NCBI GenBank assembly: GCA_017795045.1
Contig: CP051244.1
Coordinates: 872,752-936,751 of the forward strand
Direction: 5' to 3'
Source: Allomuricauda sp.
GTDB lineage: Bacteria > Bacteroidota > Bacteroidia > Flavobacteriales > Flavobacteriaceae
Length of the DNA stretch: 64,000 nucleotides
The notes below the pieces were generated by a model that saw nothing but the letters and a program-made list of their open reading frames with translations, was not told the origin of the DNA and did not search any database. Shown here piece by piece: positions 21,192-40,725 of this stretch. The translations under genes and the position numbers were made by a program. Position 1 is the stretch's first letter. Each line of letters begins with the position of its first letter.

Positions 21192-21283
21192 GTCATTTCG
21201 AACGAATGTGAGAAATCTAAATCATAAAATTGCCATAAGAGATTTCTCGTTTCACTAGATTTCTCACATTCGTTCGAAATGAC
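21192..21283. repeat. Dispersed palindromic repeat, copy 1 (27-bp perfect arms)
   Basis: Perfect inverted repeat with arms at 21192-21218 and 21257-21283; outer ends GTCATTTCGAACGAATGTG and inner ends GAGAAATCT. It lies between the YCII gene and the sigma-factor gene. Related copies are found at 23132, 23415, 23606 and 40588. Confidence 0.92.
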
Positions 21284-21304
21284 ATAGGTTTTCCATTTTT
21301 TAAA

Positions 21305-21655
21305 TCAGTGTTCCATGGAAAGGATTTCACGTACCTCCACAAAGCTTCCCTCATAATCAAAAATGGGACAACCTTTTGAAATTTCCACGGCCTCGTCATA
21401 GTCCTTGGCAGATACAATCAAATATCCGCCCACCATTTCGGCGCCTTCCGCAAAGGGACCATTGGTGACCACTTCGCCTTTATTGCTGACCACTTTTCCA
21501 TCCTTTCCCAAGGGGAGTCCGTCCAATAACTTCCCTTTTTCCTTCAAGCCTCCCATCCATGTGCCCCAAACTTCCATATGGGCCTGCTTTTCTTCTTGGG
21601 ACAATTTGTCAAAGGCATCATCGCCACCTCTGAACAGATACAAAAAATTACTCAT
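21305..21655 (-). CDS. YCII-related family protein
   Basis: Small dimeric alpha-beta protein of 116 aa, matching the YCII family (FLYLFRGGDDAFDKLSQEE, TNGPFAEGAEMVGGYLIV). Such genes regularly pair with DUF6596-type ECF sigma factors, and the sigma gene follows here on the same strand. It may act as a partner or sensor, but no function is established. Confidence 0.9.
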   Translation of the reverse strand: MSNFLYLFRGGDDAFDKLSQEEKQAHMEVWGTWMGGLKEKGKLLDGLPLGKDGKVVSNKGEVVTNGPFAEGAEMVGGYLIVSAKDYDEAVEISKGCPIFDYEGSFVEVREILSMEH

Positions 21656-21799
21656 GACGTTTCGTTTTGTGTCCTTTTTTAGGACTGGTTATATATTGTT
21701 TTCATCCTAAGGACGAACACACAACCCTTGTTTGGACAATTCTTTAAAAATAGTTGAAAAATAGATTTCTCCGTCGCATAAAACCCTGAAATGACCGTA

Positions 21800-22873
21800 T
21801 CAAAATAATTTCATCTGACCATTTTTATAGGGTTCGTGCAGATCGGTCCGTAATCTGGGAAACTGCCTGTCCCTAAAATATTTTTTTCGGGCCAAGTGGG
21901 CCATATCGTGAATCTGTTGGGCAATCTTTCCCTCTCCCCGATTCCGAACCCCAAACCGGCTATCGTTGATGGACCCTCCGTGGCAATCTTGGATCAGGTG
22001 CAGTACCTTTTCAGCCCGATCGGGCATGGCCTTTTTGATCCAATCCGTAAAGATCTGTCCAATGGCCCCGTTCAAACGCACCACGGTGATGGCAAACGAA
22101 CGGGCCCCATGATCGGCCACGGCCTTGGCCAAGGGCAAGAGCTCATGACTGTTGATGCCGGGTATCATGGGCGCCAACATGGCGTTGACGGGAATGTTGT
22201 TTTCGGACAGGACCTTAATGGTCTTCAACCTTTTTTGGATGGACGCCGTGCGGGGTTCCAGTTTTCTTCGGGTCTTTTCCGAAAGGGAGGTCACCGAAAC
22301 ATTGACCCCCACCAATTGATGGGTATTGAGCTCTTTTAAAATATCCAGGTCGCGCAACACCAACGCATTTTTGGTAATAATCCCCACTGGGTGGCGGTAT
22401 TTTAGGAAGACCTCCAAGCACTTCCGGGTAATCTCGAACTTTTGCTCAGCGGGCTGGTAGCAATCCGTATTGCCAGAAAGTACAATGGTGCACGCCTTCC
22501 AGTTTTTGTGCTTGATCTTGGCCTCCAACAGTTCCGGCGCCGCCTTTTTGATCAAAATCTTGCGTTCAAAATCTAGTCCGGCGCTATAACCCCAATACTC
22601 ATGGGCATTACGGGCATAGCAATAAATACAACCATGTTCGCAGCCTTGGTAGGGGTTCATGGAGTACATCATCCCCACATCGGGGCTGTCTACCTTGTTT
22701 ACAATGGTCTTGGGAAAAATGGGGATGTATTGGGTCTTGTTGCTCTCGGCTTCCTCTCCCTCCAAACGACAGAACTCCAGAAAATCTTCCCGCATTTCGT
22801 ACACGTGCTGCAAGAATTGATTGGGTGTGTTCTTTTGGGCCCCACGGCCTTTTTGGTATTTTTTGGGTTCCAT
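21800..22873 (-). CDS. PA0069 family radical SAM protein
   Basis: Radical SAM enzyme of 357 aa. The Fe4S4 cluster motif CxxxCxxC is at Cys78/82/85 (YQGCEHGCIYCYARN), and DxxSGNTD-like and VNVSVTSL segments fit SplB-like members. The PA0069 group is widespread but its reaction is not known to me. It seems to be a single gene, with TAAATTTG just before the start and a non-coding repeat region upstream. Confidence 0.92.
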   Translation of the reverse strand: MEPKKYQKGRGAQKNTPNQFLQHVYEMREDFLEFCRLEGEEAESNKTQYIPIFPKTIVNKVDSPDVGMMYSMNPYQGCEHGCIYCYARNAHEYWGYSAGLDFERKILIKKAAPELLEAKIKHKNWKACTIVLSGNTDCYQPAEQKFEITRKCLEVFLKYRHPVGIITKNALVLRDLDILKELNTHQLVGVNVSVTSLSEKTRRKLEPRTASIQKRLKTIKVLSENNIPVNAMLAPMIPGINSHELLPLAKAVADHGARSFAITVVRLNGAIGQIFTDWIKKAMPDRAEKVLHLIQDCHGGSINDSRFGVRNRGEGKIAQQIHDMAHLARKKYFRDRQFPRLRTDLHEPYKNGQMKLF

Positions 22874-22888
22874 TTTTTGGATTTATTC

Positions 22889-22896
22889 CAAATTTA
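22889..22896 (-). promoter_or_regulatory. Putative -7 element for the radical SAM gene
   Basis: TAAATTTG on the minus strand, 15 bases before the start codon at 22873. Confidence 0.4.
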
Positions 22897-22943
22897 TGGA
22901 TTATTTACTTTGTTTGGTTTTGAGTGAATGTTAAAAGGTGATG

Positions 22944-22970
22944 GGTTAATGGTTAATGGTTAATGGTTAA
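22944..22970. repeat. Heptamer tandem repeat GGTTAAT (about 4 copies)
   Basis: Three exact copies of GGTTAAT plus a partial fourth, at the left end of the non-coding repeat region. It resembles, but differs from, the heptamer tract at 14045-14086. Confidence 0.88.
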
Positions 22971-23131
22971 AAGGTATAAAACTGTCATGCTGAATTTAGT
23001 TTAGCATCGCATTGACCTGTCTCCAAAAGGATGGGAACCTGAAACAAGTTCAGGTTGACGAAAGTAACCCTAAGTAATGTAGTTCTCGACTGCTCCTTCG
23101 GACAGGGTCAGAAATGAGATGGGGTCTTGAT

Positions 23132-23220
23132 GTCATTTCGAGTGCAACGAGAAATCCCATATCTTACTGGTTACAATTAGATTTCTCACTCCCGATAACC
23201 ATCGGGATGTTCGAAATGAC
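23132..23220. repeat. Dispersed palindromic repeat, copy 2
   Basis: Outer ends GTCATTTCGA and TCGAAATGAC, inner ends GAGAAATC and GATTTCTC. The right arm carries an extra small hairpin (CCCGATAACCATCGGG) in place of the usual CATTCG stretch. Confidence 0.85.
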
Positions 23221-23414
23221 TTGAGGTCCTGAATATTTGGATTTCCCACTTACGCCTTGGACTACCCTTCGACCGCACTTTCGACTTGGCTCAAGGCAAG
23301 GCTCAGGGCAGGGTTCTCGACTGCGCTCGAACTGACAAAGGTAACAGAAACTTAGATTGAAGAAGTATTCAAACCGTACTCAGGGCAGCGTCAGAAATAA
23401 GATGAAGTCTTGAT

Positions 23415-23488
23415 GTCATTTCGAGTGCAACGAGAAATCCCATATTTCACTGGTAACTTTTAGATTTCTCACATTCGTTCGAAATGAC
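23415..23488. repeat. Dispersed palindromic repeat, copy 3
   Basis: Outer ends GTCATTTCGA and TCGAAATGAC with inner ends GAGAAATC and GATTTCTC; nearly the same as the left arm of copy 2. Confidence 0.87.
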
Positions 23489-23605
23489 TTGAGGTCCTGA
23501 ATATTTGGACTTTCCACTTACGCCTTGGACTACCCTTCGACCGCACTTTCGACTTGGCTCAAGGCAAGGCTCAGAACAGGGTCAGAAATGAGATGGAGTC
23601 TTGAT

Positions 23606-23690
23606 GTCATTTCGAGTGAAACGAGAAATCCCATATTTCACTGGTAACTTTTAGATTTCTCACAGCTCCTTCGACTGCGCTCAGGATGAC
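23606..23690. repeat. Dispersed palindromic repeat, copy 4 (divergent right arm)
   Basis: The left arm matches copies 2 and 3; the right arm keeps GATTTCTCACA but then changes to CTCCTTCGACTGCGCTCAGGATGAC-like sequence, so the outer stem is degenerate. It is the truncated third unit of the array. Confidence 0.78.
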
Positions 23691-23705
23691 AGCTCGAACT
23701 GACAT

Positions 23706-23734
23706 AAAAAAGAAAGAGCCCCGGAAGGGACTCT
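23706..23734 (-). terminator. Terminator of the collagen-like lipoprotein gene
   Basis: On the minus strand, stem AGAGTCCC / GGGGCTCT (one G-U pair, loop TTCC) followed by a T-rich tract. It lies about 33 bases beyond the stop. Confidence 0.7.
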
Positions 23735-23766
23735 CTCTGCAGGTAGGTATGGGAAAGGGAAAGCTT

Positions 23767-24840
23767 TTATAGGCCCTTGGCCGCAAAGTAGCGGTGCAAA
23801 GGCGCCATTTTTTCTTCGTAGGACATATTGTCCCAATCTTGGGCCTTACTGCTTGGGGCCATTTTGCCGGCAGCAGGGTCTATATCCTCGGTCTCGATGA
23901 CCAAGAGGGGACGTAGATCTGCAACATTATAATCTTTTGAAAAGAAATTTACCGATGCAGTATTGGTGTCAGCTCCATCCAACCTTAAACGCATACCCTT
24001 GTTAGATTCAGGAACACAAATCCATTGTGATACCAAGCTTCTAGGTAAAGGTATTGCTATCCAACCTATACGACCAAATGCATTAGGGTCAAGTTCCATT
24101 TCTATATTGTACCCATCTGTTCCCGAAAAGGGACCGGTCCAGTTTTGGCTTACTCCTCCATCTACAAACCAATCCTCTATATCATTTGCAGATTCCCAGT
24201 CGGCCTGATCCTCAACAAAAAGGGGGTCATTTGTATCACCAAAAAAACCAAGATGCAAAGAAACTTTGTCAGGATTGTTCGTAGAATATGAATCCATATA
24301 CAAATACAAGGTGGCTTGGTTTAGAAAAAATCCATTTTGACAAGTCTCTCCATCTGCTATTAAACTTTCCCAAATATCAATATGTATATTATCAAATCGT
24401 AATAGTCCATAGTTGCTTACAGTTGGTGCGTTTAAAACAAAGCTTGCTCTAAAGGTATCTTCTGCTCCATACTTTGTATCAATTGCAGCTCCATTAATAT
24501 ACGTGTCCTGGGTGCCACTATATCCTTTAAATCCATCCTGGAAATAAAAATCCATGTTAGGTTTGTCGCTACCGTCTTGGCCGTCGGCACCATCATTACC
24601 AGCACAATCCAGGGCGTCAAAACTCCCATCTTGGTTAATGTCTTCACCCGGATCTTGTTCTCCATCCTTATCTGTGTCCCAACAGGCCAGCCCATCCGCG
24701 CCCGGGTCACCATTGGTGCCATTCGTACCATTTGTACCATTGTTTCCGTCCAGACCGTCTTTACCATCCTCACCGGAACAAGAGGCCATTATAATGGACA
24801 TTCCCAAAAGGGCCATGCCCAGTACTTTAATTGATTTCAT
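23767..24840 (-). CDS. Lipoprotein with collagen-like repeats and a DNRLRE-like domain
   Basis: Surface lipoprotein candidate, 357 aa. Signal peptide with lipobox SIIMASC (Cys about 20), then about ten Gly-x-y triplets (GEDGKDGLDGNNGTNGTNG and on), a short calcium-binding-like stretch (DTDKDGEQDPGEDINQDGSFDALD), two or three further triplets, and a C-terminal domain resembling DNRLRE/CBM96 (YINGAAIDTKYGAEDTFRAS, LLRFDNIHID, about residues 95-335). The gene's middle part (about 23,950-24,540) appears more AT-rich than its neighbours. It has its own -7 element and terminator. The ligand is unknown. Confidence 0.8.
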   Translation of the reverse strand: MKSIKVLGMALLGMSIIMASCSGEDGKDGLDGNNGTNGTNGTNGDPGADGLACWDTDKDGEQDPGEDINQDGSFDALDCAGNDGADGQDGSDKPNMDFYFQDGFKGYSGTQDTYINGAAIDTKYGAEDTFRASFVLNAPTVSNYGLLRFDNIHIDIWESLIADGETCQNGFFLNQATLYLYMDSYSTNNPDKVSLHLGFFGDTNDPLFVEDQADWESANDIEDWFVDGGVSQNWTGPFSGTDGYNIEMELDPNAFGRIGWIAIPLPRSLVSQWICVPESNKGMRLRLDGADTNTASVNFFSKDYNVADLRPLLVIETEDIDPAAGKMAPSSKAQDWDNMSYEEKMAPLHRYFAAKGL

Positions 24841-24868
24841 AATTTTTTATTTAATTGTTATCCAGAAC

Positions 24869-24876
24869 CAAAAGTA
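24869..24876 (-). promoter_or_regulatory. Putative -7 element for the collagen-like lipoprotein gene
   Basis: TACTTTTG on the minus strand, ending 28 bases before the start codon at 24840. Confidence 0.45.
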
Positions 24877-24998
24877 CGTGGCCCTATTGGGTATTTTGGG
24901 GCCTAGTTGACCCGTGACCCGTTTGGATTGACGGATTGCCGTTTAGAATTGACGGATGAAATCTGCTGTGGGAATTTTAAGCTGCTTTTTGTGGTCGA

Positions 24999-26549
24999 TC
25001 AGTTAAAATCTACCTTGACCAATTGCTTTTTACCGCCCCGTTTGGCGTAGAACAGCATGTGGTCCGCTGTGGCATCCTTTAAAGGTTTGGAAACCATGAG
25101 GGGCAAACGGGCCTCTTGTTGGTCTATGACCTTCTCATAATCCAAGGCGCCGTTTGGGTCCAAGGAAATCATGAACACATTGCGGTTTCGGCTAAAGCCT
25201 TGTTTAAAGATAAGGCGTTCGTTGCCAATAAGCTGTGGGTTGTCCGCAGCGGTACAGATAAAGAAGTAGGTGTTGCCATCCTTGCAGTAAGAGCTGTAAG
25301 AGGCATAGTCGCCATCGCCGCGGGTCACCTCGGTCTTGTTGATGTTGCGCACCCAGTCCATTTCGCCATTGGGCCTTAACTTGGCACTTACAATGTCGTT
25401 ATAGTGGTAACGCTCCGTTTTAATGCGCTGTCCGGCACCCGTGACTTCCATACCGGTGGTAACAAAGTATTCCTCCGCATTAAAGAAGATATCGTCGTTT
25501 GGAGTAATCTGTACCCCTTTGAAGACCAAATTCTTGACCACCTTGTCCTCTTCCCTGCCAAACTTGTCTTCCATGAACTGTTGGGAAAAGGGATTGTATT
25601 TTTGGGAATTGATGTTGAGCGAGGTGGGATCTAGATCAAAATAGGCGATTCCGTTGTAGCGATTGTCCTTTCTATCAGCATAAAAACCAATACAGACCAG
25701 TCTGTTTTTAAAACGGACCGGATAGAGTGCTTCGGGATATTTTCCGGCATCCACGAACGATTGTGAACTGCTTCCGTTGGTGTTAACCCTTATAAGCTCG
25801 TACTGGAACTTTCGCTCGTCCACTTGAAAACGTTTCTTCTTAAAATAGGCTTTCCCCACAATATACGCGGTCTGCAGGTCTTGCGAGAAGGCCACATTCT
25901 CAAAGGCGTAGTTCTTTTCCTCGATCTCGTTGGAGAAGTCGAACTCGAATTTTTTGTTCAGGGCCGTATCGAACATATGAATCATATGCTTGTTGTCCTT
26001 TCCCCTTTTATGATGGGTACTGATCACAAAGCCTCTTTTATCCTCATCAAAAAGGATGGCCGTGGTAAATCCCCTGGAAAAATTTCGGTTGTAGTAGTTT
26101 TTCCCCACGGGATGATCTACCTGTTCCGAGCTGATGGAAAGTAGTTTTTTCTCCTTAAAGTCAAACGCGATGATAGGGCTGGAATGCACCCAATATTCGT
26201 ATTCGTGCCTGCCCTCATTATAGTTGAGGAACATGAGGTTCAATTGGCCGTTTTTCAGGAACCCGTCCACAAAGTCGAGCCCCTTGAGCTTGTAGTTGTA
26301 TTCTGTCACCAACTCCAGGTCGGCATTGTAATGTTCTATGAGGTAACCTTTAGGTCTTAAGATCAAGCCTTGGTAATAGGCCCGGACCAAGATATAGCCC
26401 CCGGTACCGTCATCATCAATGGTCAAAAGGTTGGAATAGCGGTAGCGGTCGTTGTATTTTTCACCAAAATTATAGGAAACGGGCATTTTTTGGGCCTGTG
26501 CCACAATACCCATAAGAAGAAGGCCCAACAGGACGATTTGTTTTTTCAT
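24999..26549 (-). CDS. Uncharacterised secreted protein
   Basis: Protein of 516 aa when started at MKKQIVLLGLLLMGIVAQA (ATG at 26549), which gives a standard signal peptide; an upstream in-frame ATG at 26573 would bury it. The mature part is rich in aromatic and charged residues with beta-strand-like repeats (YILVRAYYQG, GYLIEHYNADLEL, GRHEYEYWV, AYIVGKAYF), suggesting a beta-propeller-like fold, but no family is recognised. It starts 27 bases after the enoyl-CoA hydratase gene on the same strand and is probably cotranscribed with it and the upstream kinase gene. Confidence 0.75.
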   Translation of the reverse strand: MKKQIVLLGLLLMGIVAQAQKMPVSYNFGEKYNDRYRYSNLLTIDDDGTGGYILVRAYYQGLILRPKGYLIEHYNADLELVTEYNYKLKGLDFVDGFLKNGQLNLMFLNYNEGRHEYEYWVHSSPIIAFDFKEKKLLSISSEQVDHPVGKNYYNRNFSRGFTTAILFDEDKRGFVISTHHKRGKDNKHMIHMFDTALNKKFEFDFSNEIEEKNYAFENVAFSQDLQTAYIVGKAYFKKKRFQVDERKFQYELIRVNTNGSSSQSFVDAGKYPEALYPVRFKNRLVCIGFYADRKDNRYNGIAYFDLDPTSLNINSQKYNPFSQQFMEDKFGREEDKVVKNLVFKGVQITPNDDIFFNAEEYFVTTGMEVTGAGQRIKTERYHYNDIVSAKLRPNGEMDWVRNINKTEVTRGDGDYASYSSYCKDGNTYFFICTAADNPQLIGNERLIFKQGFSRNRNVFMISLDPNGALDYEKVIDQQEARLPLMVSKPLKDATADHMLFYAKRGGKKQLVKVDFN

Positions 26550-26576
26550 TTCGATTTGGGTTGGTCGCGCCAACGG

Positions 26577-27359
26577 TCATGAGCCGGGGAAGTCTGCCTT
26601 GCGCTTTTCCAAAAAGGCCGATGTGCCTTCCCTGAAGTCATCGGTCCCAAAACAATGGCCAAAGGCGTCTATTTCGGCGGCATAACCATCAACATCATAC
26701 TTAAAACCAGCATTTACCACTTTTATTGCCTGTTTTATGGCCACAGTGGAATTATTCGATATCCTGCTTGCTATTTTGACACAAAGGGGCAATAATTCCT
26801 CCGGGGACACCACATGATTGACCAAGCCATAAGCGAAGGCTTTGTCCGCATCGATCATCCCCGCGGTCATGATCATTTCCATGGCCCTTCCCTTGCCCAC
26901 AAGTTGTGGGAGGCGCTGTGTACCCCCATAACCGGGGATGACCCCGAGTGAGACTTCCGGGAGGCCCATTCTGGCATTGGTGCTCGCCACCCTAAAATGG
27001 CAGGCCATGGCCAGTTCCAATCCTCCGCCCAGTGCAAAGCCATTGATGGCTGCAATGACGGGAGTGGATAGGTTTTCAATATAATCGAACAGGTTTTTTT
27101 GGCCCATGGCAGACAGTTGGCGGCCTTCCTTTACCGAAAAATGGGCAAATTCCGAAATATCCGCGCCGGCCACAAAGGCTTTTTCACCACTACCCACAAT
27201 GACAATGACCTTGGTATCGGGGTCCTCATCCAACTCCTTAAACGCAACACGCAATTCCTCAATGGTCCGTTTGTTGAGGGCGTTCAGTTTTTTGGGCCGA
27301 TCAATGGTAATGGTAGCTATGTTGTTCTCTTCTTCGATGTAGATGTTCTCGTAGTCCAT
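26577..27359 (-). CDS. Enoyl-CoA hydratase/isomerase family protein
   Basis: Crotonase-fold enzyme of 260 aa, started at the ATG at 27359 to give the normal family length. CoA-binding and oxyanion motifs AFVAGADISEF and NGFALGGGLELAMAC are intact. Both hydratase Glu residues are present: Glu115 in GGGLE and Glu135 in GLPEVSLG. It should hydrate trans-2-enoyl-CoA, for example crotonyl-CoA, in beta-oxidation or butanoate metabolism. Between it and the upstream kinase gene lies a TCGACTGCGCTCGA repeat motif (27380-27393). Confidence 0.93.
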   Translation of the reverse strand: MDYENIYIEEENNIATITIDRPKKLNALNKRTIEELRVAFKELDEDPDTKVIVIVGSGEKAFVAGADISEFAHFSVKEGRQLSAMGQKNLFDYIENLSTPVIAAINGFALGGGLELAMACHFRVASTNARMGLPEVSLGVIPGYGGTQRLPQLVGKGRAMEMIMTAGMIDADKAFAYGLVNHVVSPEELLPLCVKIASRISNNSTVAIKQAIKVVNAGFKYDVDGYAAEIDAFGHCFGTDDFREGTSAFLEKRKADFPGS

Positions 27360-27405
27360 GTGTTGTTTATTTTGAGGTCTCGACTGCGCTCGACCTGACC
27401 AGTGC

Positions 27406-28857: not shown

Positions 28858-28919
28858 GCGTATTTGGTTTGAGGTAAAATTACACAATTATCAAGCCAAA
28901 TGAGGCACAAGAGTAAGTA

Positions 28920-28983
28920 CAAGTTCAAGCGCAAGCTCAAAATTAGGTTCCTACCAATTTAACTGAGCTTGCGCTTGAACTTG
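28920..28983. repeat. 20-bp perfect inverted repeat
   Basis: Arms CAAGTTCAAGCGCAAGCTCA (28920-28939) and its complement (28964-28983), with a 24-base spacer. It is located between the end of hemJ and the start of the kinase gene. It is unlike the GAGAAATCT repeat family. No T run follows, so a simple terminator is unlikely. Confidence 0.88.
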
Positions 28984-28997
28984 AAATTTGAACTTTC

Positions 28998-29543
28998 TTA
29001 AGCATTCGGATTCTTGTCCCGGATACGTTTGTAAAGTCGAATGCCCAACATCAAAAGAATGCCCAGCACCACAATACCAATAACCCCATAAATCCAATTG
29101 AACGCACTTTTTAGAATCACCAGAAACACGATGGCAAAGAGGATCAAGGTGGCCCCCTCGTTCCAGATACGCATAAACTTGGAGGTGTATGTTACCTCAT
29201 CCCGCTGCAATTGCTTAAAAATTTGATGGCATTTAAAATGATACCCAAACAACAGCAGCACAAACCCCAATTTTACATGCATCCAAGGTTCTTGTAGCCA
29301 AGAGGGCATCAAAATAAGCATCCAAACCGCAAACAGGGTGCACAGAATGGCCGAAGGCCATGTGATGATGTACCATAGGCGTTTGGTCATCAGCTTCAAT
29401 TGGTCGGTCAATATCTCCCGCTCTGGGGAGGGTTTTTGCCAAGCTTCAATATGATAGATGAACAGACGGGGAATGTAGAACAGTCCCGCGAACCAGGTGA
29501 CCACAAAAATGAGGTGCAAGGATTTAATATATGGGTAAATCAA
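28998..29543 (-). CDS. hemJ: Protoporphyrinogen IX oxidase, HemJ type
   Basis: CopD-fold membrane protein of 181 aa. The first helix YIKSLHLIFVVTWFAGLFYIPRLFIYHIE matches the HemJ/UPF0093 signature with the essential His (His10), and MHVKLGFVLLLFGYH supplies the conserved Lys region. HemJ oxidises protoporphyrinogen IX to protoporphyrin IX, feeding ferrochelatase. No hemG or hemY is seen in the window, so HemJ plausibly fills this step. It lies 18 bases downstream of the BNR-repeat genes on the same strand, so it may be transcribed from their promoter, far from the main hem cluster at 53-60 kb. Confidence 0.88.
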   Translation of the reverse strand: MIYPYIKSLHLIFVVTWFAGLFYIPRLFIYHIEAWQKPSPEREILTDQLKLMTKRLWYIITWPSAILCTLFAVWMLILMPSWLQEPWMHVKLGFVLLLFGYHFKCHQIFKQLQRDEVTYTSKFMRIWNEGATLILFAIVFLVILKSAFNWIYGVIGIVVLGILLMLGIRLYKRIRDKNPNA

Positions 29544-29561
29544 CAGTACGCTTTTTTACGA

Positions 29562-32684: not shown

Positions 32685-32708
32685 GTCCGGTCGGTTTTTG
32701 GTTTCTTT

Positions 32709-35700
32709 TTAATCCTCAATACTCAAATAATCCAATTCCAATTGGTTGAACTCATTGTTGAACGCATCAATTTCTTTGTCCACCAAAGCATCAAAGGCAT
32801 TCAATTGTTCCTTTATCTTTCCTGAAAGTTCATTTTTCACGGCCATATCCTGTTCTGTTGGAGGGAAATCGTCTATGGACACCAAGCTGTTCAAGTGGGC
32901 CAGTTTATTGGTCAACCGTATGGGGAAGTTCAAGGGGTCTTGGTTGCTTCGGTTTTGGGTTTGATAAAGCGCCTTTTCTATTTCCCCAAAGTCTTCCTTC
33001 ATTTTTTCGGCCTTTTCCACCAAGGCCTTGGTAGCTTCATTGTCTTTGTACTGCTTCACAAAAGCATCCAGCTTTTCATTGATTTTCCGGATTTTCTTTA
33101 TGGATTGATGGGCCCTGTCCACCGTTTCATTGATGTCGGTAATAAAATCGAACTGCTTTTGCATATCGGCCACGGAAACTTCCGCCCTGGGATCGGGAAG
33201 AATCTTAAATTCCTGGGGCTGATCGGCACCGTTCACATTCAAGTGCACTTTATAGCTTCCCGGAACCGCTTTGGCACCATCCAAATTGGCCCACCAGAGA
33301 ATCATTCCCTCTAATTTTTCCGCTCCTTTGCCACGGGTATCCCAAACATGGGTATTGCCCCCTTTCTTGGCCGTAAGCTTTTTGTCCTTATCCTTCGCAT
33401 AAGAGCTATATGAAGCCAAAGTATCCCCGTTCATCGTGGTATAGGTAAGGGCCACACTGTCTTTTTCCGAAAGATTTTTGAGGTAAAAGTGGGTGACCAC
33501 GCCATTGGGATGGTTTTGCCCCTCGGTTTTAGACGGGGTCTTGGCCACTCCTCCCTTGGTACGATAACTGTCCTTGGGATGGAACAAAATGGCCTCTGCC
33601 GATTTTTTGGAGCCATCCAATTGGTGTAAAACCGTAAGATCATCAATGATCCATAGACTTCGCCCTTGGGTGGCCACGATGAGGTTGTTGTCCTTAATGG
33701 TCAAGTCAGTAATGGGAACAATGGGTAGGTTCAATTGGAATTTCTCCCAATTTTGGCCATCATTGAAGGAAATGTACATTCCCGTTTCCGTTCCTGCGTA
33801 CAACAATCCTTTTCTCTTTGGATCTTCACGTACCACACGGGTAAAATGTTCATTGTTAATGCCATTGGTAATCTTGGTCCATGTTTTTCCATAATCCGTG
33901 GTCTTGTAGAGGTAAGGTGTGAAATCCCCCAATTTGTAACGGGTAGCGGCTACATAACAGGTCCCTTCATCAAAAGCGGAGGGTTCAATGCTGTTCACCA
34001 TACTCCACTCGGGCATGATATTGGGTGTTACATTTTCCCATGTTTTTCCTCCATCTTGGGTCACATGGATCAGTCCATCATCACTTCCTACCCACAACAG
34101 ACCTTCTTTTAAAGGACTCTCATTGGCAGCAAAAATGGTACAATAGTATTCCACACTGGTATTGTCCTGGGTTATGGGTCCGCCACTGGACACCAATTTT
34201 GTAGGATCGTTTCGGGTTAGGTCATCACTCAACAAGGTCCAACTTTGCCCTTCATTGGTACTCATGTGGACATGGTTGGAAAAGGTATAGAGCTTTTTGG
34301 GATCATGCTTGCTGAATATAATCGGGAAATTCCATTGGAAACGGTATTTCATTCCCTCGGCACCATACCCCATAGGGTTATCCGGCCAAACATTGATGCC
34401 CCTAACCGTTTTGTTCTTGTGGTTGACCCTAGTCAGGAATCCTCCATAACTACCTCCGTACACAATATCATCATTGGTAGGGTCTACTACAATGTGCGCA
34501 GATTCGCCTCCCGCTGTTTCTTCCCAATCGTCCTCTCCTATGGAATTGTCATCACTCCGGTGGTTGATACGCAAAGTGGAATTGTCCTGCTGCGCTACAT
34601 AGATGCGGTACGGAAACGCATTATCCGTAGTGACCCTATAAAATTGGGCGGTGGGTTGATTGTAGTAGGTACTCCATGTTTCCCCGCCATCGTAACTGAT
34701 CTGTGCGCCACCATCGTCCCCAATAATCATCCGTTTTGAGTTCTCTGGGGCAATCCAAAGATCATGGTGGTCACCATGTGGTGCATTAAAGGTGTTGAAG
34801 GTTTTTCCTCCATCCGTACTTCTATGGTATTGGACATTGAGCACATAAACCACATCCTCATCTTCCGTATCGGCATAGACGCGGGTATAGTACCAAGCCC
34901 TTTGACGCAGTTTGCGCTCCTCATTAACACGGGTCCATTTTTTTCCTCCATCATCCGAACGGTACAAGCCTCCTTTTTCCTTGTTTTCCACTATGGCCCA
35001 TACCCTTTCACTGTTTTTGGGGGATACGGTCACGCCAATAATCCCCAAGGTATCTTTTGGGAAACCATCATTTTTTGAGATTTCCGTCCAAGTCTCTCCG
35101 CTATCCGTACTCTTCCAAAGTGCAGAACCTTCGCCTCCACTACTTAAGCTATATGGGGTACGTTGCACCCTCCATGTGGAAGCATACAATATTCTTGGGT
35201 TGTTGGGATCAAAAGTCAAGTCTACAGCACCAGCATGTTCATTCACAAAAAGAATCTGTCTCCAAGTTTTACCGCCATCAGTAGTCTTGTATATTCCGCG
35301 TTCTTTAGTGGGTTTATAAATATTGCCCATCACTGCGGCATAAACGATATCATGGTTTGTGGGATGGACCTTTAACCTGGGGATATGCCTTGTTTTTTCG
35401 AGCCCCATGGATGCCCAAGTCTTTCCTCCATCTTCAGTTTTCCAAACACCATACCCTGAAGAGACATTCCCCCGTACGGTTTTTTCACCTCCTCCAACAT
35501 ATATTACATTGGGGTCGCTTTTGGCCACTTCAACGGCACCGATACTTCCTCCAAAATAACCATCGGAAATATTCTCCCATGATCGACCACCATCCGTGGT
35601 CTTCCAAACCCCACCGCCGGTGGCACCAAAGTAAAAAAGATTGGGTTCCCCGGGCACTCCTGTAACGGCAGCGGAGCGACCACCACGAAACGGACCGATC

Positions 35701-35849
35701 AATCGATATTCCAAACTGGAATAGATTTCCTCAGGATATTCTGGGGTGGTTTGGGTTTTCTTTTTTCGTTGGGATTGAACGGTAGCAACGCAGAGCGTGA
35801 AGGTAAGCAGCAGCATACCCATTTTGGAAAAGCAAGTCTTCATTTTCAA
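32709..35849 (-). CDS. Secreted BNR/sortilin-repeat protein (paralogue 2)
   Basis: Protein of 1046 aa with signal peptide (GMLLLTFTLCVATVQSQ) and the same plan as the next gene: FRGGRSAAVTGVPG near the start, repeated TDGGRSWENI, DGGKTWASMG, DGGKTWRQI and DYGKTWTKI blades, then a C-terminal domain and helical tail. The shared opening ([11 protein letters not shown] versus [11 protein letters not shown]) and collinear blades show tandem duplication followed by strong divergence. It is probably the first gene of the unit BNR2-BNR1-hemJ. The substrate is unknown; a role in polymer or peptide binding outside the cell is inferred. Confidence 0.85.
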   Translation of the reverse strand: MKMKTCFSKMGMLLLTFTLCVATVQSQRKKKTQTTPEYPEEIYSSLEYRLIGPFRGGRSAAVTGVPGEPNLFYFGATGGGVWKTTDGGRSWENISDGYFGGSIGAVEVAKSDPNVIYVGGGEKTVRGNVSSGYGVWKTEDGGKTWASMGLEKTRHIPRLKVHPTNHDIVYAAVMGNIYKPTKERGIYKTTDGGKTWRQILFVNEHAGAVDLTFDPNNPRILYASTWRVQRTPYSLSSGGEGSALWKSTDSGETWTEISKNDGFPKDTLGIIGVTVSPKNSERVWAIVENKEKGGLYRSDDGGKKWTRVNEERKLRQRAWYYTRVYADTEDEDVVYVLNVQYHRSTDGGKTFNTFNAPHGDHHDLWIAPENSKRMIIGDDGGAQISYDGGETWSTYYNQPTAQFYRVTTDNAFPYRIYVAQQDNSTLRINHRSDDNSIGEDDWEETAGGESAHIVVDPTNDDIVYGGSYGGFLTRVNHKNKTVRGINVWPDNPMGYGAEGMKYRFQWNFPIIFSKHDPKKLYTFSNHVHMSTNEGQSWTLLSDDLTRNDPTKLVSSGGPITQDNTSVEYYCTIFAANESPLKEGLLWVGSDDGLIHVTQDGGKTWENVTPNIMPEWSMVNSIEPSAFDEGTCYVAATRYKLGDFTPYLYKTTDYGKTWTKITNGINNEHFTRVVREDPKRKGLLYAGTETGMYISFNDGQNWEKFQLNLPIVPITDLTIKDNNLIVATQGRSLWIIDDLTVLHQLDGSKKSAEAILFHPKDSYRTKGGVAKTPSKTEGQNHPNGVVTHFYLKNLSEKDSVALTYTTMNGDTLASYSSYAKDKDKKLTAKKGGNTHVWDTRGKGAEKLEGMILWWANLDGAKAVPGSYKVHLNVNGADQPQEFKILPDPRAEVSVADMQKQFDFITDINETVDRAHQSIKKIRKINEKLDAFVKQYKDNEATKALVEKAEKMKEDFGEIEKALYQTQNRSNQDPLNFPIRLTNKLAHLNSLVSIDDFPPTEQDMAVKNELSGKIKEQLNAFDALVDKEIDAFNNEFNQLELDYLSIED

Positions 35850-35948
35850 AGTGTTAATTAGTCGTGTCTAAATGTAATGAAAAAGGAAGAAAAAAGGTTT
35901 CACAATATTTTGTATTTTAACTCCCTCATTTAAATCTCAACCCACACT

Positions 35949-36737
35949 ATGCGAAATTATTTTGGGCTCATCGTTCTTGTCGTTCTGATGGCAGCCTGCA
36001 AAAACCAATCAAAATCCCAAGAAGCACAAACCACACAAACGCCAGAGCCAGAAGAGTCCGAATGGATCTATCTCTTTGACGGTACCAGTACCGAAGGCTG
36101 GCGCGGCTACAACATGGAGACCCTTCCCCCCGGTTGGATCATAAAGGATAGCACCCTGACTTTCGACACCGAACTGGGCATGGAGCAGGACTACAAAGGC
36201 GGAAAGGACATCATCTACGGCGCCGAGGAGTTCGACAATTTTGAGCTCTACATGGAATGGAAGCTTCCCGAAGGCGGCAACAGTGGCATCTTCTACCATG
36301 TCAAGGAAGGTTACGACGGTCCCCCTATGGTATCGCCCGAATATCAGCTCATCGATGACGAGAACTATGCCCGCATCCATGACCTTACGGCCTACAATAC
36401 CAGTCTGGGCTACACTGATAAACCTGAAGAACTCAAGCCCTTGCAGCAAACCGGAGCCGACTACGCCATGCACCCACCAAAGGCCAACAAGACCCTACAT
36501 CCCGCTGGGGAATGGAACAGCTCCAAGATTGTCTTCACCCCTGAAAAAGTGGAGCACTGGCTCAACGGGGAACTATTGTTGTCATTTGTTCCTTGGGATG
36601 AGGCTTGGCACGAAAAGAAAAACTCGGACAAGTGGAAGAACAGTCCTGACTACGGAAAGTTCAAGACAGGGTTCATTGCCTTGCAGGACCACTCCAGCCC
36701 AATTTGGTTCCGAAACATCAAAATAAAAAAATTATAA
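35949..36737 (+). CDS. DUF1080 lipoprotein (3-keto-glycoside hydrolase family)
   Basis: Lipoprotein of 262 aa (lipobox VLMAAC, Cys17). The body is one DUF1080 jelly-roll domain: WIYLFDGTSTEGWRGYN, FELYMEWKLPEGGNSGIFYHV, YQLIDDENYA, WNSSKIVFTPEKVEHWLNG and a final GFIALQDHSSPIWFRNIKIK. Members of this family include enzymes that cleave 3-keto-glycosides. It is the first gene of an operon with a Gfo/Idh oxidoreductase (17 bases later) and a P1 peptidase, supporting a role in sugar oxidation and cleavage at the cell surface or in the periplasm. Confidence 0.9.
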   Translation: MRNYFGLIVLVVLMAACKNQSKSQEAQTTQTPEPEESEWIYLFDGTSTEGWRGYNMETLPPGWIIKDSTLTFDTELGMEQDYKGGKDIIYGAEEFDNFELYMEWKLPEGGNSGIFYHVKEGYDGPPMVSPEYQLIDDENYARIHDLTAYNTSLGYTDKPEELKPLQQTGADYAMHPPKANKTLHPAGEWNSSKIVFTPEKVEHWLNGELLLSFVPWDEAWHEKKNSDKWKNSPDYGKFKTGFIALQDHSSPIWFRNIKIKKL

Positions 36738-36754
36738 TCCGCTAAAACCAACCC

Positions 36755-38182
36755 ATGAATAAAAGAGAATTCATTAAAAAGAGTAGTGTAGGTGCCCTAG
36801 GCATCATGGTGGCCCCTTCGTTGTTGAAAGGAGCCCCTTTCAAGGAAAGATTACGAACTGCACACATCGGTGTGGGGAACATGGGCGCTGCGGACCTCAG
36901 CGCCATATCGTCCCATGGTTCCGTGGACGTTGTGGCCTTGTGCGATGTAGATGCCGTTAACCTTTCCGCTGCGCGCAAACTGCACCCAACGGCCCGTGTG
37001 TTCTTCGATTACCGCACCATGTTGAAAGAAATGGCCGATCAGATCGATGCCGTGATCGTGTCCACCCCGGACCATACCCACGCCCCAGCCTCCATTATGG
37101 CCATGGAGATGAACAAGCCCGTCTACTGCCAAAAACCTTTGACTCATTATGTTTCTGAGTCCCGCGCCATGAAAAAGATGGCCGCCGAAAAAGGTTTGGT
37201 GACCCAGATGGGCATTCAGGTACACTCTTTCTACGATTATAAACTCGCCACGCTCTTGATCCAATCCGGAATCATTGGCAAGGTGCACACCGTGCATGCC
37301 TGGTCCCCCAAGAACTGGGGATACGACGGTCCCCTTCCCCAAGGAGAGGACAAAGTCCCGGCACAATTGGACTGGAACCTTTGGTTGGGGACCTCCGCCG
37401 AAAGACCTTATAAAGAGGGAATGTACCATCCCGGGAACTGGAGAAAATTGATGGACTACGGCTGTGGCACTTTGGGTGACATGGGCGTACACATCTTCGA
37501 CACCCCGTACAACGCCCTTGAGCTGGACGTTCCCATGACCGTGAAGACCGAGTGCCGCCCCTCCAATGGGTTCGGGTACCCGGAGAACAATGTGGTGACC
37601 TATGAGTTCCCTAGCACACCGTATACCTCCAAGACTTTCAAATGGGTTTGGTACGATGGCCCTGGAGCCCCAGATATGCACGAGGACTTAATTCTACCTG
37701 GTGCCAAGAACATGGCCGCTAAGAAATCAAATAAAGAGGAAAGTGTAGAGGACAAAATATCACTAGACGCCAAGGTGGCCGGAGAGGGCGAGCTTCCAGA
37801 ACAGGGAGCCATGTTCGTAGGTGAAAAGGGACGCCTGTTGCTCCCCCACTTCATGCAGTTGCCCAAGAAGATCGTAAGGGGCAAGTACGTGGACATCTCC
37901 AAGGAGATCGCCAAGTTGAACGAGAAGCACAATCTGGGCGAGCCCATCAGAAATTATGAGTCCGAAGGACCCAAGCACTACCACCAGTTCGTGGACGCTT
38001 GTCTGGGCAAGGCTGAGACCACGGCACCTTTTGAGTATGGGGCTAGGCTCACCGAGACCATACTGTTGGGCACCATTGCCGGAAGGTTCCCCGGGGAGAC
38101 CCTCCACTGGGACGCACAAGCGGCAAAGTTCAAGGAGGAAAATGCAAATGCCTATCTTTCAGGAGACTATAGGGATTTTTAG
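36755..38182 (+). CDS. Exported Gfo/Idh/MocA family oxidoreductase
   Basis: NAD(P)-dependent oxidoreductase of 475 aa with a Tat-like signal (MNKREFIKKSSVGALGIMVAPSLL; KR rather than RR). Rossmann motif HIGVGNMGAADL and the active-site YCQKPLTHY segment are present. It resembles the gene at 16903 in plan but differs in sequence. Partnership with the DUF1080 protein suggests it acts on sugars, possibly making or reducing 3-keto forms. The substrate is inferred, not shown. Confidence 0.9.
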   Translation: MNKREFIKKSSVGALGIMVAPSLLKGAPFKERLRTAHIGVGNMGAADLSAISSHGSVDVVALCDVDAVNLSAARKLHPTARVFFDYRTMLKEMADQIDAVIVSTPDHTHAPASIMAMEMNKPVYCQKPLTHYVSESRAMKKMAAEKGLVTQMGIQVHSFYDYKLATLLIQSGIIGKVHTVHAWSPKNWGYDGPLPQGEDKVPAQLDWNLWLGTSAERPYKEGMYHPGNWRKLMDYGCGTLGDMGVHIFDTPYNALELDVPMTVKTECRPSNGFGYPENNVVTYEFPSTPYTSKTFKWVWYDGPGAPDMHEDLILPGAKNMAAKKSNKEESVEDKISLDAKVAGEGELPEQGAMFVGEKGRLLLPHFMQLPKKIVRGKYVDISKEIAKLNEKHNLGEPIRNYESEGPKHYHQFVDACLGKAETTAPFEYGARLTETILLGTIAGRFPGETLHWDAQAAKFKEENANAYLSGDYRDF

Positions 38183-38194
38183 TACTCCCCTATC

Positions 38195-39313
38195 ATGAAT
38201 AGGTCCGTACTGACCCTCCTGATCTTATTGCCATTACTTTCGTTTTCGCAGAAGCGCATTCGAGATTATGGTGTTGGGATTGGAGTGCTCAGACCAGGAC
38301 AATACAATGCAATTACCGACGTGCCTGGGGTACGGGTGGGACATGTCACCTTGATAAAAGGCGACAGCATCCGTACCGGGGTCACGGCGATTCTTCCCCA
38401 TTCGGGAAACCTCTTCCAAGAAAAAGTCCCGGCAGCCATACATGTGGGCAACGGCTTTGGAAAACTGGCCGGCAGCACCCAAGTGAAGGAACTGGGCAGT
38501 TTGGAAACCCCTATCATCCTGACCAATACGTTGAGTGTGCCCACGGCCGTAAATGCCGTTATAGGATACACTTTACATCAAGAGGGCAACGAAACGGCCC
38601 GTTCCGTAAATGCCGTAGTGGGCGAAACCAATGATGGGTATTTAAACGACATTCGAGGACGCCATGTCAGCGAAACGGATGTACTACAAGCCATTTCAAA
38701 AGCAAAAACTGGAGCAGTTCCTGAAGGCAATGTTGGTGCGGGAACGGGCACCATTTGTTTTGGATTCAAGGGAGGGATAGGAACCTCTTCCCGTGTGCTT
38801 CCCAAAAAAATGGGAGGATACACCATAGGCGTATTGGTGCAGACCAATTTTGGCGGTGTTTTGCAAATAGCCGGGGTGGATGTGGACAAGCAGCTCGATC
38901 GTTATTCTGAAACGCTCAAGTATTCAGCAGATGGTTCCTGTATGATGGTGGTTCTGACGGATGCCCCATTGGATGCCCGCAATTTGGAACGATTGGCCAA
39001 ACGGGCCATGTTGGGCTTGGCCAAAACCGGAGGAATTGCCAGTAACGGCAGTGGGGATTATGTGATTGCCGTTTCCACGGCAGAGGAATGTAGAATCCCT
39101 TATGAAAGTGAAAATCCCATTCAAACTGTACCGACCTTACGCAATGAGGCCATGACCCCACTTTTTCTGGCCACCATTGAAGCCACCGAAGAGGCCATCC
39201 TCAATTCTCTTTTCGCTGCGGAAACCATGACCGGTCGTGATGACCATACCATTGAGGCGCTTCCAAAGAAAAAGGTGTTAGAAATGCTCCAAGCGGCCCA
39301 TAAAATGGACTAG
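38195..39313 (+). CDS. P1 family (DmpA/S58-type) peptidase
   Basis: N-terminal nucleophile hydrolase of 372 aa with a signal peptide (LTLLILLPLLSFSQ). The domain begins GVGIGVLRPGQYNAITDVPGVRVGH, and the autocleavage and nucleophile site is in SNGSGDYV, with Ser286 following Gly285. Relatives are L-aminopeptidase D-Ala-esterase/amidases and beta-peptidyl aminopeptidases. It follows the Gfo/Idh gene by 12 bases. Why a peptidase is coupled to a sugar oxidation pair is unclear. Confidence 0.9.
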   Translation: MNRSVLTLLILLPLLSFSQKRIRDYGVGIGVLRPGQYNAITDVPGVRVGHVTLIKGDSIRTGVTAILPHSGNLFQEKVPAAIHVGNGFGKLAGSTQVKELGSLETPIILTNTLSVPTAVNAVIGYTLHQEGNETARSVNAVVGETNDGYLNDIRGRHVSETDVLQAISKAKTGAVPEGNVGAGTGTICFGFKGGIGTSSRVLPKKMGGYTIGVLVQTNFGGVLQIAGVDVDKQLDRYSETLKYSADGSCMMVVLTDAPLDARNLERLAKRAMLGLAKTGGIASNGSGDYVIAVSTAEECRIPYESENPIQTVPTLRNEAMTPLFLATIEATEEAILNSLFAAETMTGRDDHTIEALPKKKVLEMLQAAHKMD

Positions 39314-39438
39314 CACTTCATCCCATCCACTTTTTCTTCGCATGTGGCGTAACATTCCCCTTGAATTTTACACTAACCTAATAGAAACTCTATAGTTTTT
39401 TTATAGTTTTAAAAGCATAATACCTAAAAAACACTACC

Positions 39439-40578
39439 ATGGATATTTTTGGAAAGATCAAGGAGAAACTGAGCAATGAGTTTATCGATATTGTTGAGTG
39501 GCTCGATTATACGGATGACACCATTGCGCATCGATTTGAGCGTTATCAAAATGAAATAAAGAACGGCGCAAAGCTGATTGTCCGCGAAGGGCAAACCGCC
39601 GTTTTCATCAACGAAGGCCAATTGGCCGATGTCTTTGAACCGGGCACTTATGACCTTACCACACAAAACCTGCCAATTTTGGCTACTCTGAAAGGGTGGA
39701 AATACGGGTTCAATTCCCCATTCAAGGCCGAAGTGTATTTTGTGAACACCCACTTGTTCACCGACGAGAAATGGGGCACCAAGAGTCCCATCACTTTAAG
39801 TGACGACCGATTTGGTTTGGTAGAGATTCGTGCTTTTGGAACCTATGCCTTTAAAATTTCGGATGCTGGCAAGTTTATCAAAGATATTGTTGGCACGGAT
39901 AGCAACTTTACCAATTTTGAGATCAATGAACATCTCAAAAGTTTGATAGCCACACGATTTACAAATACCGTGGGCCAAGCCAATTTGCCCATTGAATTGT
40001 ATGCCGCCAATACCACTGAACTTTCGGATACGTGTCGCGAAGTCATGTCACCTGAGTTTGAAAGCGTGGGCATTTCCTTGGAAAAATTCTATATCGAAAA
40101 TGTTTCCATGCCCGAAGATCTCAAAAAGGAAATCTTCGAGTACAGCCGTATCGACAAGCTTGACCTCGATAAATTGACCAAGTTCAAAACTGCCAAGGCC
40201 ATTGAGGCCGCTGCCCAAAACGAAGGCGGGACCGCCGGGGCTGGAATGGGCATGGGTATGGGGTTTGTTTTGGCCCAACAAATGGGAGGCATGATGGGTG
40301 GAAACCCCCAAGCCTCCCCACAACAAACCGCCCAACCTGTTGGAGGCGCCGTTCCTCCACCAATGCCAACACAAACCATGTATTACTATGCCTCCAATGG
40401 GGTACAACATGGACCAGTGACCTTTGAACAAATGCAATCCCTTTTTGCATCCCGGGCCATCAATCGTGATAGTTTGGTATGGAAGCAGGGCATGGCCGCT
40501 TGGGCTTCTTTAAAAGAAGTGGAAGAATTGAAATCGTTCTTGGGAGGCAACACACCACCGCCGTTACCAGGACAATAA
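39439..40578 (+). CDS. SPFH domain protein with C-terminal GYF_2 domain
   Basis: Protein of 379 aa. The SPFH/virion-core-like region covers about residues 1-255 (LIVREGQTAVFINEGQLADVF, EIRAFGTYAFKISD, FYIENVSMPEDLKKEIFEYSRI). A low-complexity Gly/Met segment (GTAGAGMGMGMGFVLAQQMGG) and a Pro-rich linker lead to a GYF_2 domain (about 325-370: YYYASNGVQHGPVTFEQM, WKQGMAAWASL). It resembles the YdjI-type SPFH proteins of Bacillus, but with GYF_2 in place of a C-terminal zinc ribbon. A zinc-ribbon membrane protein follows after a palindromic repeat. Confidence 0.9.
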   Translation: MDIFGKIKEKLSNEFIDIVEWLDYTDDTIAHRFERYQNEIKNGAKLIVREGQTAVFINEGQLADVFEPGTYDLTTQNLPILATLKGWKYGFNSPFKAEVYFVNTHLFTDEKWGTKSPITLSDDRFGLVEIRAFGTYAFKISDAGKFIKDIVGTDSNFTNFEINEHLKSLIATRFTNTVGQANLPIELYAANTTELSDTCREVMSPEFESVGISLEKFYIENVSMPEDLKKEIFEYSRIDKLDLDKLTKFKTAKAIEAAAQNEGGTAGAGMGMGMGFVLAQQMGGMMGGNPQASPQQTAQPVGGAVPPPMPTQTMYYYASNGVQHGPVTFEQMQSLFASRAINRDSLVWKQGMAAWASLKEVEELKSFLGGNTPPPLPGQ

Positions 40579-40587
40579 TTCTCATTT

Positions 40588-40679
40588 TGTCATTTCGAAA
40601 TGAGTTGCAAAGCAACGATTGAGAAATCTAAGTAATTACACATTGAGATTTCTCAGTCGCTAGCTCCTTCGAAATGACA
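40588..40679. repeat. Dispersed palindromic repeat, copy 5
   Basis: Outer arms TGTCATTTCGAA (40588-40599) and TTCGAAATGACA (40668-40679), inner arms TGAGAAATCT and AGATTTCTCA, plus a small GTTGCAAAGCAAC hairpin in the left half. It lies between the SPFH gene and its zinc-ribbon neighbour. Confidence 0.9.
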
Positions 40680-40725
40680 GCCTATCAATTTTGACATGGA
40701 TTTCCGCCTACACGGAAATGAAACT

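Follow-up and report, generated by a model that had tools for sequence, protein, structure and literature searches.

The closest described relatives of the palindromes examined here are repetitive extragenic palindromes (REPs). In the REP/RAYT system (REPtron, GTAG tags), the gene for a REP-associated tyrosine transposase (RAYT) is flanked by repeats, further copies are dispersed without a gene, and the types of enzyme and repeat match. A second kind of REP carries CGTC or TGTC tags, and one carrier, G. forsetii, is a flavobacterium. The repeats of this study were found in a 64,000-nucleotide stretch of an Allomuricauda sp. genome (the window; C1:872752-936751 of 3,755,467 bp, genome G000). 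A sequence-only reading had suggested that five palindromic copies in the window could be elements resembling REPs or miniature inverted-repeat transposable elements; all five were located where it placed them, and this suggestion was right. The window copies are probably non-autonomous relatives of the CGTC/TGTC-tagged REPs, with a standalone GIY-YIG nuclease as their dedicated partner.

The accessible text of the survey by Di Nocera et al. (2013, PMC3733652) reports CGTC-type REPs from five phyla and names G. forsetii among the positive species. No dedicated transposase was found there for the CGTC/TGTC-tagged REPs, and what moves them was left open. As described in that text, the survey looked at transposase genes (PMC3733652); a nuclease could have been missed.

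The unit of the repeat was an arm composed of a GTC tag, a stem starting ATTTC/GAAAT, a GA..GA step and a loop of 7–33 nt. Many arms formed inverted pairs (dimers) with the GTC tags outward. The GTCATTTCGA..GAGAAATC pattern (GTCATTTCGAN{4,30}GAGAAATC) matched 75 times genome-wide (36 forward and 39 reverse), 74 of them distinct, as one overlapped another. The reversed pattern gave 0 matches, which excluded chance. Strict arms with the TGTC form numbered 29, again with 0 for the reversed pattern. The genome-wide count thus found the copies to be abundant elsewhere, and not absent outside the window. Taken by itself and allowing 2 mismatches, the outer 11-mer showed no excess in the window over shuffles (28 vs. 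22.5 expected), and therefore the evidence lies in the two-part arm. In generic form, GTCA-X4-GA..GA-X4', the arm occurred 32 times in a 464-kb sample (the window plus 20 × 20 kb, partly N) and 3 times in one Markov shuffle. The stems of these 32 arms were TTTC (19), GTTC (5), TTCC (3) and five others once each.

The hairpin was examined with the tag and the loop GAGCGNAGTCGA held fixed. Of 73 distinct contexts, 64 had a perfect 4-bp stem; permutation gave 8.3 on average and 19 at most. The perfect stems were of 11 kinds. These contexts are partly dependent, the loci being mostly fetched around arms and including orthologues. In the tip helix, two-sided changes occurred in 21 cells among 34 distinct 40-nt arms chosen for a common outer stem, and 0 of 500 shuffles reached this value. 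Covarying pairs (4) and pair types (9) in the tip helix were not above shuffles. These results indicated that the hairpin was kept and not the exact sequence.

The base preceding GTC in the 74 arms was T in 41, C in 12, G in 12 and A in 9, so that 53 of 74 carried the unpaired CGTC/TGTC end tag. As to the CCA-like tail of the CGTC REPs, the two bases following GAGAAATC were TA (21), TC (19), CC (13), TT (10), CA (5), TG (5) and CT (1). At first sight, the TGTC arms appeared strand-biased by chromosome region, with the 74 arms lying in few independent clusters and the origin and terminus unplaced. DnaA was at 2.888 Mb, the GC skew changed sign near 1.1 and 2.6 Mb, and the gene strand bias was weak.

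These arms share several features with the CGTC REPs as given in the accessible text of PMC3733652: the GTC tag (CGTC, in many cases TGTC), a stem beginning with A-T and then T-A, inverted dimers, an intergenic and sometimes intragenic position, and no flanked tyrosine transposase. Unlike the CGTC REPs, which have a stem of 8–9 bp and a loop of 4–5 nt, the arms had a perfect run of 5 bp in an outer stem broken by a GA/GA step. Their variable loops (7–33 nt) may hold inner hairpins, heterodimers of different stems occurred, and a GIY-YIG gene was the probable partner. The repeats are related to, yet lie outside, the four described CGTC REP families.

The GIY-YIG gene (99 aa) was located outside the window, at G000:C1:1791936-1792232. 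The protein matched PF01541 above the cut-off (E 2e-15, 57 bits vs. 22.6), and Y8, Y19, G21, R29 and E69 were invariant in 11 of 11 aligned sequences, which placed it in the GIY-YIG superfamily. The catalytic residues of the superfamily are among these positions. The best PDB matches were 1zg2 and 1ywl (sequence E 1e-4 and 2e-4; fold E 2e-3 and 1e-2). The structure model was of moderate quality (mean pLDDT 65) and served solely for topology and as a supporting fold match, none reaching E ≤0.001. The single GIY-YIG domain is shared with UPF0213/GIY-YIG proteins (1zg2, 1ywl) and with GIY-YIG homing endonucleases. Unlike in those proteins, cognate REPs flanked the gene, and no intron or intein was seen around it. 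One arm ended 15 nt before the ATG, and another began at the stop codon. The cluster containing the gene was the richest of 35 clusters, with 9 strict arms. This standalone GIY-YIG gene with cognate arms at both ends, in the arm-richest cluster, is new. No report linking GIY-YIG genes to REPs was found in the literature searched, in which subscription journals were thinly covered, so a prior report is possible.

The association was investigated at 90 GIY-YIG loci of Flavobacteriaceae, namely 30 returned by the search and 60 further regions down the list of matches, mostly one per genome. The loci were not chosen by flank, and the coincidence of arm and gene in several genomes had already been noticed beforehand. 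A GTCA-tagged 5-bp hairpin within 150 nt of the gene was present upstream in 63, downstream in 64, on either side in 74 and on both sides in 53. The corresponding numbers were 2, 4, 6 and 0 for 40 loci of tyrosine (Y1) transposase genes; 7, 0, 7 and 0 for 30 trpF loci; and 20, 15, 33 and 2 for 307 open reading frames (ORFs) of G000. Shuffled flanks gave 9.9% on either side. Hairpin density was 8.2 per kb at 0–100 nt from the GIY-YIG gene and 1.5 beyond 400 nt, and in the Y1 loci 0.9 per kb or less throughout. Arms within 250 nt on both sides were found at 61 loci. The nearest arms were in the orientation + upstream and − downstream at 34 of these (p 3e-7 vs. one in four), and the same 4-nt stem stood on both sides at 32. 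Across the family, GIY-YIG genes most often stand at the place of the short spacer of a dimer. The repeats resemble the REP/RAYT system in having a gene flanked by repeats, gene-less dispersed copies and matching types of enzyme and repeat; they differ from it in the GTC(A) tag and in a GIY-YIG nuclease in place of an HUH Y1 transposase.

Stem classes, grouped by hand, required 23 changes on the nuclease tree vs. 37.6 when shuffled, and 0 of 200 shuffles were as low (n = 72; 18 of the 90 were dropped for no arm within 250 nt or for a short or broken frame). TTTC arms were present in 27 of 28 genomes with a close GIY-YIG homologue vs. 90 of 369 others, where close means a best E of 1.3e-38 or lower, a threshold fixed after viewing the list. 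Of the 397 family genomes, 264 had a GIY-YIG match; the share was 101 of 117 among arm-positive genomes and 163 of 280 among the others (p 3e-8).

Single loci showed the same arrangement. One homologue (L100) had TTTC arms on both sides. Three GIY-YIG genes from trpF loci (L168, L174, L177) had a GTCATTCCTGC-type palindrome directly upstream, and a CCCT/TGCT pair with a trpF-type loop flanked another GIY-YIG gene (L407). In several flavobacteria (L168, L174, L177, L387, L396, L402, L408), palindromes of the ATTTCCGC/ATTCCTGC type accompanied a GIY-YIG gene. The gene directly before those GIY-YIG genes was taken from its tail to be trpB.

The sequence-only reading had proposed a search for a REP-associated tyrosine transposase. 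No PF01797 match was found in the genome. It is highly improbable that the repeats are moved by a RAYT/IS200-type HUH transposase that is now lost or rarely acting, as GTAG REPs are thought to be in the accessible text of PMC3733652. In favour of this explanation, 61 of 156 family genomes with a Y1 gene had some arm vs. 56 of 241 without one (397 genomes; odds ratio 2.1, p 0.001), which counts mildly against the nuclease as partner. The link was absent at at least 10 arms (p 0.27) and at at least 20 arms (p 0.80). PF01797 matches were found in 5 of 35 same-genus relatives, while arms were present in 31 of the 35. The mean number of arms was 8.8 in the five Y1 genomes vs. 19.7 in the other 31 (G000 included), and 12 of 13 genus genomes with at least 20 arms had no Y1 gene. 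None of the 11 Y1 loci taken from the genus and the order had the GTCA hairpin with the GA step, and the 124.8 kb around the 40 Y1 loci contained it once; the looser rule gave one-sided hairpins at 6 of the 40 and two-sided ones at 0. The RAYT-type Y1 genes from the genus and order (L221-L228) had flanking repeats of their own, several of the GCTAGCGCGAGC../..GCCAGCGGGG type. RAYT/IS200 was thus not supported as the mover, given no Y1 gene in the genome, no link with arm number and few hairpins flanking Y1 genes, which is in line with the absence of a dedicated transposase reported for CGTC repeats (PMC3733652).

A protein search of plasmids gave 20 records, of which 13 were fetched and 7 near-duplicates were left out. 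They came from rhizobia, Shinella, Sphingobium, Novosphingobium, Azospirillum, Planktothrix (a cyanobacterium) and Spirosoma. The GTCA rule identified an arm no further than 250 nt away, on one or both sides, at 11 of 13 loci; the two that failed (L417, L420) had palindromes with altered tags. By eye, palindromes were present on both sides at all 13, for example CGTCATCCTCGGGCTTGACCCGAGGATCC and CGTCACCCCGGGCTTGACCCGGGGTCC. Hairpin density, the sole control for this set, fell from 8.9 per kb at 0–100 nt to 0.4 at 400–800 nt. The CGTC-REP species named in the accessible text of PMC3733652 include S. meliloti, A. lipoferum and N. aromaticivorans. There is about an even chance that GIY-YIG nucleases, and not HUH transposases, drive a class of mobile palindromes that spans phyla. 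The nuclease would cut its cognate GTC-tagged hairpins, and rejoining would swap, flip and disperse the cassettes. The gene as spacer would be the autonomous form, plain dimers would be the non-autonomous form, and the enzyme that the CGTC REPs have lacked would be this nuclease. Two plasmid loci had distinctive neighbours: the REP-flanked GIY-YIG gene stood between sufB and sufC in Azospirillum lipoferum (L421), and between an MmeI-type gene and the drmA gene of a DISARM-like locus in Planktothrix (L414).

GIY-YIG is a known homing-endonuclease domain. The strongest rival explanation is the reverse of the proposed causation: a selfish homing-type GIY-YIG gene would land in abundant REPs made by something else. 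The protein had a group I intron endonuclease match in NCBIfam, weak and below the cut-off, which fits such an origin. Several observations weigh against a dedicated nuclease. No GIY-YIG match at E 1e-3 was found in 16 of the 117 arm-positive genomes, four of which hold at least 10 arms (G094, G222, G244, G375). The sister species G031 has 64 arms and had no gene at the site of the G000 gene, to which the search was limited; G000 holds the gene where the sister species has arms only. This difference and the 16 genomes also fit reverse causation. The hairpin rule failed at 16 of the 90 loci, related hairpins being seen by eye at several of them. TTTC stems accompanied nucleases of more than one clade, few forks of the nuclease tree are resolved, and the flank association could mean that the gene uses the repeats as a home. 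Reverse causation does not account well for the clustering of stem class with nuclease clade, the like association in other phyla with different stem sequences, the TTTC arms in nearly all close-homologue genomes, or the gene often being the spacer of an outward-tagged dimer. It was considered possible, with a probability well below that of the nuclease as partner.

The behaviour of the elements at fixed sites was investigated in trpF. A PRAI match was present in 42 of 59 genomes, and 30 loci plus that of G031 (L144) were read, with G051 dropped as a fragment. The inserts lay in frame in a single codon region, flanked by the motifs 'QLHG..YC' and 'IKVFS'. The content of this region was as follows:
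G000, G011, G035, G019: TGCT+CCCC dimer
G027, G029: TGCT+CCCC dimer, inverted
G031, G014, G005, G018, G001, G008: TTTC+GGTC dimer
G022, G013, G012, G016: single TTTC arm
G025: TTTC+TTCC dimer
G009, G017, G023, G032: degraded forms, judged by eye
G021, G026 and seven genomes of other families: no element

The closest pairs by flank were G000/G031 (91%), G035/G008 (93%) and G019/G001 (90%), each consisting of one TGCT and one TTTC type. In these three pairs, the swaps affected the element and about 10 adjoining nt and went no further. In the TrpF proteins of the genus, peptides of several types derived from REPs are thus inserted in the same region (L070:3085-3780, L161-L190). Rickettsia palindromic elements also sit in frame within genes. 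The accessible text of PMC3733652 counts RPE-4 and RPE-6 of R. conorii among the CGTC REPs. The two cases are alike in having palindromes within protein genes; unlike in Rickettsia, the elements in a single codon region of trpF differ in type or orientation from species to species.

The site of copy 5 also changed its content. Its states, labelled by hand as A, A-inverted, B, B-inverted, C, other or none, were placed on the phylogeny of the gene downstream, a 51-row tree made by a quick method and with 18 of its 48 inner forks open. The labels needed 21 changes, with a minimum of 6 and a shuffled value of 29.3, and therefore they also partly follow the tree. Starred branches of this tree forced 3 changes each for A-inverted and B-inverted. 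In close species, the flank was common up to GTCAT and the content differed inside. A site-specific TTGC tip lay on opposite arms in L237 and L242, an in-place inversion. Arm copying would give a homodimer, and the F. pelagia site (L252) held one. L269 had a right flank like that of L242, another A-type species, so some swaps may be allelic imports, which would speak against the nuclease as their cause.

A rival without any enzyme is passive evolution, in which ancient hairpins change by template switching, tandem duplication and allelic recombination. According to the accessible text of PMC8604942, template switching homogenises the arms of inverted repeats and inverts their spacers, and both are known products of it. 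The pattern was visible in copy 1, in the L252 homodimer and in L237 vs. L242, with the direction of change judged by comparison. Copy 1 has perfect arms in the window, with a half-arm GATTTCTCGTTTCAC followed by the exact complement of the left arm; the right arm in the sister species reads GATTTCTCGTTTCACTCGAAATGAC. Most likely, these perfect arms arose by arm copying via template switching in the lineage of G000, a direction judged from two species. Simple dimers common to G000 and G031 at orthologous sites also agree with passive persistence. Passive evolution leaves the nuclease association unexplained, as well as the whole-cassette swaps limited to the element and about 10 nt in three close pairs, and it was rated quite unlikely as the full explanation.

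With the GIY-YIG nuclease as partner, the following mechanism is proposed. The nuclease would recognise its cognate hairpin and cut at or near the tag. The break would be rejoined, or repaired from another element. The cassette could thereby be lost, copied to a tagged site, multiplied in tandem, swapped for another type or flipped. These outcomes would be possible because the elements end in GTCA..TGAC. Cutting at or near the tag would produce tag-limited edges, which passive mutation does not explain. Arm homogenisation, as in copy 1 and at the copy 5 site of F. pelagia, would be ordinary polymerase template switching between arms. The structure and number of the repeats, their association with the gene, the clustering of stem types, and the swaps and inversions were observed; cleavage, the cut position and a role of the nuclease in driving mobility are inferred from them.

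The five copies and further elements of the window, with window coordinates, were as follows:
21192..21283, no strand: copy 1, inverted TTTC-stem dimer with perfect 28-nt arms; the right one resembles a copy of the left, next to a remnant of the former right arm
21764..21796, minus strand: degenerate TTTC arm; the same place is occupied in the sister species
22984..23008, plus strand: TGCT-stem arm (GTCATGCTGA..AGCATC), a stem type that occurs in trpF of G000
23132..23220, no strand: copy 2, TTTC dimer with an extra inner hairpin CCCGAT..ATCGGG in the right arm
23313..23336, minus strand: GTTC-stem arm with the loop GAGCGCAGTCGA
23415..23488, no strand: copy 3, TTTC dimer
23606..23704, no strand: copy 4, TTTC left arm, with a composite right part including a TCCT-stem arm at 23667-23690
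27376..27399, minus strand: GGTC-stem arm at the 5' end of an enoyl-CoA hydratase ORF, ahead of the Pfam domain
40588..40679, no strand: copy 5, TTTC dimer, with a Band_7/GYF gene on one side and a zinc-ribbon-like gene on the other
40698..40719, minus strand: classical palindrome of the ATTTCCG type, overlapping the listed start of ORF 40696

The sequence-only reading had missed the same-architecture arms with other stems at 22984, 23313, 23667 and 27376, the degenerate copy at 21764 and the classical palindrome at 40698. It had given copy 1 perfect arms of 27 bp; the arms were 100% complementary, over 28 nt. Its strong hairpins were borne out for four copies, whose single-stranded DNA folding exceeded shuffles (z −10.5 for copy 1, −6.3 for copy 2, −3.5 for copy 3 and −6.7 for copy 5). 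Copy 4 was unremarkable (z −1.85), because its right part is a composite of other arm types. No Rfam match at gathering scores and no tRNA gene was found in the window. The protein adjoining copy 5 had 98% identity to a protein of Flagellimonas alvinocaridis SCR12. The listed start of ORF 40696 adjoined the palindrome (40696-40730), and the ATG at 40726 fitted several relatives better as the start, their match beginning at residue 11 or 13.

The comparison with the sister species covered 10 orthologous sites chosen for arms in both species. The identity of the elements was 89.7%, vs. 90.8% for the inner and 91.5% for the outer flanks. At 8 of the 10 sites, the identity of the element was above that of the outer flanks; the other two hold replaced or clustered content. 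Conservation of the elements is not put forward as proof of function, the total identity being below that of the flanks. No clean new insertion with a target duplication was found between G000 and the sister species. Counts of presence and absence are biased, as the G031 regions were fetched around G031 arms and the G000 regions around G000 arms. One G000 site, at 543 kb, lay within a 2-kb indel absent from G031; a second region compared for this purpose (C102) did not align. The possibility that the copies are ancestral sequence fixed in relatives did not hold in simple form, since elements across the genus were present, absent, swapped or inverted. In G000 near 43.5 kb (L070, about 1450-1750), a gene that we take to be trpD was interrupted by a repeated sequence, presumably the Tn5 mosaic end of sequencing kits, and the G031 gene was uninterrupted. 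This interruption is likely an assembly artefact.

The position of the elements relative to genes was investigated with a simple ORF call. The 35 strict-arm clusters comprised 19 tandem, 11 convergent and 3 divergent cases, with 2 scored within ORFs. Convergent gaps were enriched (11 of 33 intergenic clusters vs. 14 of 143 background gaps, p 0.001), and divergent gaps were depleted (3 of 33 vs. 48 of 143, p 0.005). The copies had been said to lie only between genes, which applied to the five in the window and not to the whole genome. A strict solo arm was in frame in metG, the gene for methionyl-tRNA synthetase (L053:15539-15564), identical in the sister species, and an element with another stem was in frame in trpF. 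In the second ORF-scored cluster (L059), the ORF runs past the end of the locus and its first ATG lies within the element; the real start is probably further downstream, and the cluster was taken as intergenic.

These positions bear on a main role in RNA, in which 3' hairpins stabilise or end transcripts. Such a role is compatible with the GIY-YIG nuclease as partner. The convergent enrichment and divergent depletion, the compensatory changes in the tip helix, the perfect pairing of the free stems, and the element identity above the outer flanks at most sites chosen for arms in both species agree with it. Elements also lie between same-strand trp genes, which we take to be trpD and trpC, and in frame in trpF and metG, so terminator action there is hardly possible. 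Selection against disrupting promoters would also yield this distribution. RNA was considered unlikely to be the main role.

Some genes between REP clusters (L060, L061, L063, L045, L062) encode proteins that resemble surface proteins or lipoproteins (DUF285/cadherin, MopE-like and others), and some of the cluster spacings around them differed from those in the sister species. In G031, a nucleotidyltransferase-HEPN gene lay between two REP dimers (L135:1738-2613), and the corresponding arms in G000 were about 250 bp apart.

A small enzyme tied to a repeat type makes the question of the REP mover directly testable. If the proposed partnership is true, it would hint at what proteins with no annotation beyond 'GIY-YIG nuclease family protein' do, and it would account for the unusual peptide insertions of TrpF and other proteins.

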